Positions 23,024-24,527 of a DNA stretch of 34,986 bases are shown piece after piece. Every line of letters starts with the position of its first letter. Position 1 is the first letter of the stretch. The notes beneath the pieces were generated by a model that made no database searches, was not told the DNA's origin, and worked only from the letters and a program-made list of their open reading frames with translations. The stretch comes from Acidimicrobiales bacterium (GTDB lineage Bacteria > Actinomycetota > Acidimicrobiia > Acidimicrobiales > Ilumatobacteraceae), in the NCBI GenBank assembly GCA_030833305.1, contig JAURHL010000002.1:1-34986 (forward strand). The letters run 5' to 3'. The position numbers and the translations under genes were made by a program.

Positions 23024-23803
23024 ATGACCATCCGCCTGCACGTCGTCACCGGCGGGCACCCCTTCGTGGCCGCGGACTTCTTCGCCGTGTTCGATTGGTT
23101 GTCGTCGTTCGAGGACGTGGTCTGGACCGCGGTGAACTCACCCTCGGTGCCCGATGTCGACCCACCGGACGTGATCCTGTTTTACGACATGCCCGGACTC
23201 ACGTTCACCCGCGACGCCCAGGCCCCGCTCGAAACGCCGGAGCCCACCGAGGAGCAACGTCGTGTGTTCGCCGAGCTGTGCGAACGAGGAATCGGAATGG
23301 TGTTCATGCACCACGCCGTGGCCAGTTGGCCGGCATGGGAGGGTTTCGCCGAGATGGTCGGGGGGCGTTTCCACTATCGCCCTGGCAGCTTGCGGGGCGT
23401 GGAGTATCCGGATTCGGGTTACGTCTTCGACGTGGCGCACACCGTCGAAGTGCTGGCGCCCGAACACCCCATCTGCGAGGGGCTCGGAGATTCCTTCGTG
23501 CTCACCGACGAGCTGTACTGCTTCCCGGTGTTCGAGGACGACGTGGTGCCGATCATGCGCACTACGTTCCCGGTGGACGAGCCGACGCGCTTCTTCTCGG
23601 CCGACCAGGCCATCCGCGGTCGGCGCAACAGCAACGAGGGCTGGACCCACCCCGCGGGGAGCGCGCTGGTGGCGTGGGTCAAGCGTGTCGGGAACTCGTC
23701 GCTCGCGTATCTGCAGTTCGGAGACGGTCCGACGACGTACGCGGACCCGACGTTCCGACGGATCATCCGCAACGCGGTCCTCTGGTCCGCCCCAACCCCC
23801 TAA
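23024..23803 (+). CDS. ThuA-like domain protein
   Basis: IRLHVVTGGHPFVAADFFAVFDWLSS...VFMHHAVASWPAWEGFAEMVGGRFHY...HPICEGLGDSFVLTDELYCFPVFE...AYLQFGDGPTTYADPTFRRIIRNAVLW; ThuA (GATase-like) pattern. Confidence 0.85.
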   Translation: MTIRLHVVTGGHPFVAADFFAVFDWLSSFEDVVWTAVNSPSVPDVDPPDVILFYDMPGLTFTRDAQAPLETPEPTEEQRRVFAELCERGIGMVFMHHAVASWPAWEGFAEMVGGRFHYRPGSLRGVEYPDSGYVFDVAHTVEVLAPEHPICEGLGDSFVLTDELYCFPVFEDDVVPIMRTTFPVDEPTRFFSADQAIRGRRNSNEGWTHPAGSALVAWVKRVGNSSLAYLQFGDGPTTYADPTFRRIIRNAVLWSAPTP

Positions 23804-23810
23804 CCAAACG

Positions 23811-23877
23811 AAAATGCGACAATTTGTCGCTTTGTGTACACCACCCGTGTACACAAAGCGACAAATTGTCGCATTTT
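23811..23877. repeat. Perfect inverted repeat: 31-bp arms, 5-nt loop (CACCC); nested palindromes in each arm
   Basis: AAAATGCGACAATTTGTCGCTTTGTGTACAC / GTGTACACAAAGCGACAAATTGTCGCATTTT, checked base by base as reverse complements. Sits between convergent stop codons; could act as a bidirectional terminator. Confidence 0.95.
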
Positions 23878-23888
23878 TGACAAGGGGG

Positions 23889-24527
23889 TTAGGACCAGGT
23901 GTCCCAGCGGACGAACTTCTCGGCGGGAACTCGGGACGCCAGCTTGAAGTCGGTTCCCACGGTGTACGCGATCGGGAACAATCCTGCCTGGGTGTACTTG
24001 TCGAACGGAATGCCCAACAGCTCCGCGGCTTCTTTCTCGTGCGGCAGGTGCAGGGTGGTCCACGCCGAGCCGAGTCCGCGCTCGCGCAGGGCGAGCATGA
24101 AACTCCAGACCGCCGGCAACAGCGAACCCCACGCCGACGCCTGCCCGAACGTCGGGGTGCCGGCGTCGAGTCGTCCGGCGATGAGCGGAATCATCAGAAC
24201 CGGAACCTGGTCGAGAACCTGGGCCAGATGCATCGACGAGTCGACGATGCGCTCGCCTTGGGCGTCGCGCTTGGGGCGATTCGGGTCGTTCACGTACGGG
24301 TAATAGTTCGCTCGGTACATCTCGGCCAGCGCGGTCTTCTTCGCCTGATCCTCGACGAACAACCACCTCCACCCCTGCATGTTGGAACCGGTCGGCGCTT
24401 GATGCGCAATCTCCACGCACTCCATCAACACCTCTCGCTCCACCGGTTTGGTGAGATCCAGACGCTTGCGCACCGCACGGGTCGTGGTGAGCACCTCGTC
24501 GGCGGACAATCCGAGTTTCATGGCCAT
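23889..24527 (-). CDS. Nitroreductase family protein
   Basis: TTRAVRKRLDLTKPVEREVLMECVEIAHQAPTGSNMQGWRWLFVED...WSFMLALRERGLGSAWTTLHLPHEKEAAELLGIP; FMN nitroreductase pattern. Confidence 0.9.
   Translation of the reverse strand: MAMKLGLSADEVLTTTRAVRKRLDLTKPVEREVLMECVEIAHQAPTGSNMQGWRWLFVEDQAKKTALAEMYRANYYPYVNDPNRPKRDAQGERIVDSSMHLAQVLDQVPVLMIPLIAGRLDAGTPTFGQASAWGSLLPAVWSFMLALRERGLGSAWTTLHLPHEKEAAELLGIPFDKYTQAGLFPIAYTVGTDFKLASRVPAEKFVRWDTWS

Follow-up and report, generated by a model that had tools for sequence, protein, structure and literature searches.

Dispersed palindromes are common in bacteria, and to our knowledge the REP/RAYT systems are the only ones for which an enzyme is known. AbiEi-DUF559 proteins are widespread in Actinomycetota, where they are usually annotated as antitoxins or as proteins of unknown function. 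RAYTs or other transposases are a common means by which short dispersed palindromes move (PMC2817692, PMC3733652). In the logic of REP/RAYT, the enzyme gene lies between two copies of the repeat, enzyme and repeat co-evolve, the enzyme evolves fast and the copies follow genes (PMC2817692, PMC3733652); no enzyme is known for the CGTC-tagged REPs (PMC3733652). A further point of reference is the AbiE type IV toxin-antitoxin system, in which AbiEi reportedly binds a pair of inverted 23-bp sites separated by 3 bp (PMC3985639).

Here we describe a hairpin in a 34,986-nucleotide stretch of DNA (the window) from a freshwater Ilumatobacteraceae MAG of 2.18 Mb in 399 contigs, about 80% complete. The main finding, invisible to the first-pass annotation of the window, is a nuclease gene placed between two copies of the same element, together with many lineage-specific sister families. 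From the comparative analysis we think it probable that this is a REP/RAYT-like system with an unrelated enzyme, in which the window hairpin would be a non-autonomous copy whose spread is driven by a partner AbiEi_4 + DUF559 nuclease. In the open-access literature that we searched, we found no description of DUF559/AbiEi genes linked to dispersed palindromes.

The hairpin and its dispersed family

A ThuA-family gene (23024-23803, plus strand; Pfam ThuA, E 2.6e-22) and a nitroreductase-family gene (23889-24527, minus strand; Pfam, E 7.4e-20) converge on a gap at 23804-23888. An inverted repeat at 23811-23877 begins 7 bp after the end of the former and stops 11 bp before the end of the latter. 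Its arms (23811-23841 and 23847-23877) are 31 nt each, 100% complementary and separated by a 5-nt loop; like the palindromes within it and the gap itself, it is given without strand. No other inverted repeat of the window comes near it in strength, the runner-up being 17 nt at 94%, and its RNA fold of -63.4 kcal/mol has a z-score of -14 against shuffles. The hairpin is real, and chance is ruled out. Each arm carries an outer palindrome, P1 on the left (GCGACAATTTGTCGC, GCGACAA-T-TTGTCGC; 23816-23830) and P1' on the right (GCGACAAATTGTCGC, GCGACAA-A-TTGTCGC; 23858-23872), 42 bp apart from centre to centre, and an inner palindrome GTGTACAC (23834-23841 and 23847-23854). A further outer match, AACCCCCT/AGGGGGTT, overlaps the stops of both genes, TAA at 23801-23803 for ThuA and TTA at 23889-23891 for the nitroreductase. 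The perfect hairpin between convergent genes, the nested palindromes, the match across both stops and the identity of the two neighbours had all been proposed in the first-pass annotation, and every one of these features was verified. Rfam returned no match to the hairpin, so that a known RNA family is out, and the structure is not an assembly fold-back artefact, because independently assembled MAGs carry the same element at the same site.

The earlier suggestion of a dispersed REP/MITE-like element proved right. The window genome contains 10 full copies (20 exact GCGACAAWTTGTCGC sites, paired), and about 8-13 copies each were found in three relatives (G002, G003 and G023) and in the more diverged G015; the copies, which are intergenic, frequently lie at convergent gene ends. 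The remaining 19 genus members hold none, or only chance or partial matches to the window's element. When 85,000 species genomes (GTDB) were scanned by pattern, the element turned up only in freshwater-type Ilumatobacteraceae/Acidimicrobiia MAGs. Scanned viral contigs contained no copy and phage and plasmid records no good homologue of the nuclease, and on these grounds we rejected a phage or plasmid origin. All source genomes are MAGs, many of them incomplete.

Alignment of 48 copies from five species defined a core that is always 59 bp long (TGCGACAAWTTGTCGCTTTGTGTACA-N7-TGTACACAAAGCGACAAWTTGTCGCA; 23815-23873 in the window), often inside ACC-N4...N4-GGT. Throughout the family P1 (GCGACAAWTTGTCGC) is almost unchanged, and the inner palindrome is less conserved than P1, the inner part drifting in G015. 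Covariation within clade 1 is uninformative, as P1 hardly varies there and pairing was no higher than in shuffles. The loop is 7 nt in most copies; the extra pairing of the window copy is due to a C/G pair that closes its loop and to flanking A/T. A U-tract is not part of every copy, in that several end in GCAAAGTGG on one side, and the window copy has T-tracts.

Two further sites in the window genome were recorded. One of them (GCGACCATTTGTCGC; G000:C233:4575-4589) is a P1-like site that has a single mismatch and no partner and is either a remnant or a chance match, and a copy of a second family (G000:C87:3517-3557, locus L191) is 90% like the element that flanks a paralogous nuclease of G002 on contig C289.

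Placement at gene ends, gain and loss

Copies of the element sit at gene ends: according to gene calls made with our own codon-based caller, 41 of the 46 cores have a stop codon no more than 17 bp away. Where both neighbours were called, 24 cores were between convergent, 19 between tandem and 3 between divergent genes; among gaps of at least 40 bp at the same loci, divergent ones are the commonest. The neighbours, named by eye, are functionally unrelated and include PEPCK, argininosuccinate synthase, a NifU-like protein, SecG and acyl-CoA dehydrogenase among others. Most element loci are common to several species.

The window site is filled in four species (G000, G023, G002 and G003) and empty in 16 of the 21 genus genomes with a readable gene pair (G015, G012 and others). 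In most of these element-free relatives the two stop codons abut or nearly do so; the element was therefore gained, or cleanly lost, at this site. When filled and empty states were compared at one locus, an insertion between abutting stops was seen, with no clear target-site duplication. Orthologous cores at the window locus share 95% identity between G000 and G002/G003, against 53-56% at fourfold sites of the nitroreductase gene, and at the PEPCK locus the cores of G000 and G003 are 98% identical, against 75% at fourfold sites. Clade-1 copies are mostly inherited vertically at orthologous sites, and the activity of the element is therefore old or slow.

The 3' end of the PEPCK gene holds four different element families across species, and nothing in eight others. 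The family found there is generally that of the genome's own nuclease, the exception being G007, which carries the G009 type. This gene end is a hotspot, where elements were gained repeatedly or replaced in concert.

In the close relative G008, both elements that were found, one at the window locus and one at the PAC2/sulfhydrylase locus (L090 and L091; G008:C143 and G008:C232), are collapsed single-P1 remnants, with P1 mutated, the outer flanks kept and about 42 bp between the P1s seemingly deleted. The DUF559 gene went undetected in this assembly, which is 53% complete, and the collapsed elements suggest decay without the nuclease. At the end of an M20 peptidase gene (L047, L080) the final residues, ...MRQFVALCT, are encoded inside the element, and many copies start with TAACC or TAG at their edge; on both grounds, the element seems to provide stop codons to the genes that border it.

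The partner nuclease and its sister palindromes

Two copies of the element bracket one gene in four of five species, the first lying 44 bp ahead of the gene's start and the second about 10 bp past its stop. In the window genome the gene is found on contig C49 (locus L046:1038-1976). It encodes an AbiEi_4 winged helix (PF13338, E 3.8e-8, above the cut-off) followed by a DUF559 nuclease domain of the PD-(D/E)XK type, has a low codon fit and is named AbiEi by PADLOC (E 1.5e-19). Catalytic-type residues D237, E248, D250 and E206 are kept in 97-100% of 64 homologues. A PDB sequence search with the protein returned nothing meaningful, and an AlphaFold model built from three near-identical sequences reached a pLDDT of 35, too low to be of use. 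The DUF559 gene was undetected in three genomes in which elements are present (G014, G015 and G021), and it is possibly missing from incomplete assemblies, the MAGs of G014 and G015 being only about 80% complete.

Genus members that lack the window's element carry nuclease homologues bracketed by other palindromes: GCCACTCTGTAC... in G009, CCACTTTGGAAT... in G004-G007, G016 and G017, CACCCTGATGCG... in G011, and still others in G001, G010 and G019. These sister palindromes are dispersed in their own genomes and are likewise located at gene ends, and in G019, G001 and G010 side-by-side pairs also occur without the gene, like REPIN doublets. We scored such bracketing with a flank test, in which the best ungapped match, in either orientation, between the 300 bp before and the 300 bp after the gene had to score at least 15, and used windows shifted 700 bp outwards at the same loci as controls. 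Homologues passed in 17 of 17 cases in the genus, 17 of 19 in other genera of the family and 13 of 23 in a phylum sample, compared with 0 of 48 shifted controls, counts that are not fully independent since the loci include orthologues. Ten of the 23 phylum-sample homologues have no flanking palindrome. Within the genus, a set drawn by the DUF559 profile alone gave 12 passes among 13 further full-length genes; the two failures outside this class were a 97-aa fragment and a DUF559 protein that is large and multidomain.

Element and nuclease change together. In both clades the nuclease occupies one ancestral locus, with a gene for a substrate-binding protein on one side and an amidohydrolase gene on the other. 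Between clades the nuclease is 46-51% identical and these neighbours 65-68% and 85-88%; the nuclease therefore evolves faster. Over its first 60 residues, which form the winged helix, G000 and G003, whose element is the same, are 100% identical, whereas clades with different elements are 30-48% identical. Clade-2 elements (29 distinct sequences) are arranged exactly as 23-3-23 with the outer 12 bp invariant, and their Watson-Crick pairing (588) exceeds that of every shuffle (at most 578).

Near the nuclease, a second nested palindrome, TCTGACGnnnCGTCAGA, was noted at L062:5805-5842, L074:1141-1178 and L084:1352-1389 and also at L098:5734 and L118:2034. Ahead of the substrate-binding protein gene it occurs twice, with AATT as spacer, and elsewhere nearby, apparently near the amidohydrolase start, it occurs once; it looks like a regulator's operator for the nuclease neighbourhood. 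Beside the nuclease unit of clade 2 (L138, L141, L143, L144 and L145) there is also an ordinary-looking G+C-rich hairpin, GAGGGCCGCC..GGCGGCCCTC, with T-rich sequence behind it. This hairpin, which is distinct from the element, is probably the real terminator for the adjoining gene.

Comparison with described systems and rival explanations

Several properties are common to these elements and REP/REPIN-RAYT: both are short, extragenic, dispersed palindromes that tend to follow genes and to lie where genes converge; both surround an enzyme gene with two copies; and in both, enzyme and repeat co-evolve, the enzyme evolves rapidly and paired copies occur. However, RAYT is an HUH tyrosine transposase, whereas the enzyme here is a winged-helix PD-(D/E)XK nuclease. 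REPs and REPINs measure 20-40 bp, exceed 100 copies and bear a GTAG or CGTC tag, whereas the present elements measure 41-59 bp, number roughly 10-50 copies and have neither tag at the palindrome end in the consensus (ACCNNNNTGCGACAAWTTGTCGC...). The RAYT domain (Y1_Tnp, PF01797) was found in 0 of 24 genus genomes by a search that detected its positive controls, and a RAYT-mobilised REP was rejected on this ground. The system thus appears to work like REP/RAYT without being a member of it, because its enzyme differs and the tags are missing. MITEs resemble the elements in being non-coding, intergenic inverted repeats that are gained and lost at orthologous sites, but here the palindrome is almost the whole element, no target-site duplication was recognised, and the related autonomous unit encodes a nuclease instead of a DDE transposase.

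Likeness to AbiE resides in the N-terminal AbiEi_4 winged helix and in the 23-3-23 arrangement of the clade-2 element, which is the geometry of the published AbiEi operator; because of this match, our best hint, the winged helix probably binds the element as duplex DNA. The multi-site operator put forward in the first-pass annotation was to this extent right in spirit. The C-terminal domain of the nuclease is, however, DUF559, and operator-like sites here are dispersed over gene ends instead of lying at a single promoter. The palindrome-nuclease pair is not an AbiE toxin-antitoxin system, because no toxin gene (the nucleotidyltransferase AbiEii) adjoins the nuclease, whose neighbours are the substrate-binding protein and amidohydrolase genes, each beyond an element.

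In the mechanism that we propose, the element-nuclease-element arrangement would act as the autonomous unit, and palindromes that stand singly or in pairs would be the dispersed units; the dedicated nuclease of the window's non-autonomous hairpin would be the one encoded on contig C49 between two other copies. The winged helix would most likely recognise the inverted arms much as AbiEi does its operator, and the nuclease domain would cut at or near the element, which could then be copied or moved into gaps just after stop codons. There it would be harmless and might also end transcription, a terminator activity that we regard as plausible. Binding, cleavage, the manner of mobilisation and any terminator role are steps that we infer. 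Weighing against the mechanism are the mostly vertical inheritance of clade-1 copies, the lack of a clear target-site duplication at the locus compared, the genomes with elements but no detected DUF559 gene and the phylum-sample homologues without a flanking palindrome. In its general form, the proposal is that AbiEi-DUF559 proteins act as the enzymes behind a new class of mobile palindromic repeats, and that they recognise 40-60-bp hairpins, spread them to gene 3' ends and co-evolve with them as an independent counterpart of REP/RAYT; we place its chances slightly above even.

Three other explanations were weighed. The palindromes could be fixed operator or self-recognition sites of a winged-helix nuclease that serves as regulator or defence marker, immobile and multiplied by ordinary duplication and selection. 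Although the 23-3-23 geometry and the near-invariance of P1 speak for such sites, and a copy placed 44 bp ahead of the nuclease gene would suit autoregulation, we judge this unlikely: the sites follow genes instead of lying at promoters, the neighbouring genes are functionally unrelated, and gain/loss polymorphism, gene-less paired copies and whole-family turnover at one hotspot resemble spreading DNA.

Bidirectional terminators selected at gene 3' ends, flanking the nuclease merely as they would any gene that needs them, are in our estimation quite improbable. Intrinsic terminators share with the element a stable hairpin between convergent stops and, in some copies, a T-tract; the tight 3'-end location, the very stable hairpins, the A4/T4 flanks of many copies, the terminator-like sites reported by a terminator scanner and an element identity between species of 95-98%, versus 53-75% at fourfold sites, which suggests selection or homogenisation, all agree with this account. 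Yet the element is a near-identical dispersed sequence linked to a nuclease, many copies end in GCAAAGTGG with no T-tract, about 10 copies per genome cannot be the general terminator, and the same gene pairs in relatives manage without it. Left unexplained are the copy upstream of the nuclease start, the phylum-wide matched pairs around AbiEi-DUF559 genes as opposed to none in shifted controls, and an element sequence that shifts by lineage together with the nuclease. A local terminator alone is insufficient, the element being a dispersed family tied to a nuclease. Finally, the elements could be MITEs or REPs that an unrelated transposase moves, with the nuclease as passenger. This would accord with how short dispersed palindromes commonly move and with the inferred nature of the nuclease's tie to movement, but is very unlikely given the lack of Y1_Tnp, the transposase domain searched for, in the 24 genus genomes and the fact that AbiEi-DUF559 is the only gene class found recurrently bracketed.

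Our data point to a family of DNA repeats in many Actinomycetota that spreads, is linked to a nuclease and has been little noticed. If the proposal is true, a second enzyme class follows the same genomic logic, so that this lifestyle arose more than once, and a large family filed as 'DUF559' or 'AbiEi antitoxin' acquires a testable function. Defence-gene scanners may then miscount such genes as defence, as PADLOC's AbiEi call illustrates. The elements are candidate recognition sequences that can be used directly in binding and cleavage assays.

The near-complete G019 assembly (loci L304-L321), in 7 contigs, has AbiEi-DUF559 genes in four copies and dispersed palindromes of several distinct families, side-by-side doublets at convergent gene ends among them, and offers a good model genome for the palindrome-nuclease system. 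A different arrangement was seen in G187 of the same phylum (L252), where an AbiEi-DUF559 gene lies between long inverted arrays of a GGTTCCGGCG.../CCCGGGCAGCGACGG unit, which replace the single palindromes.
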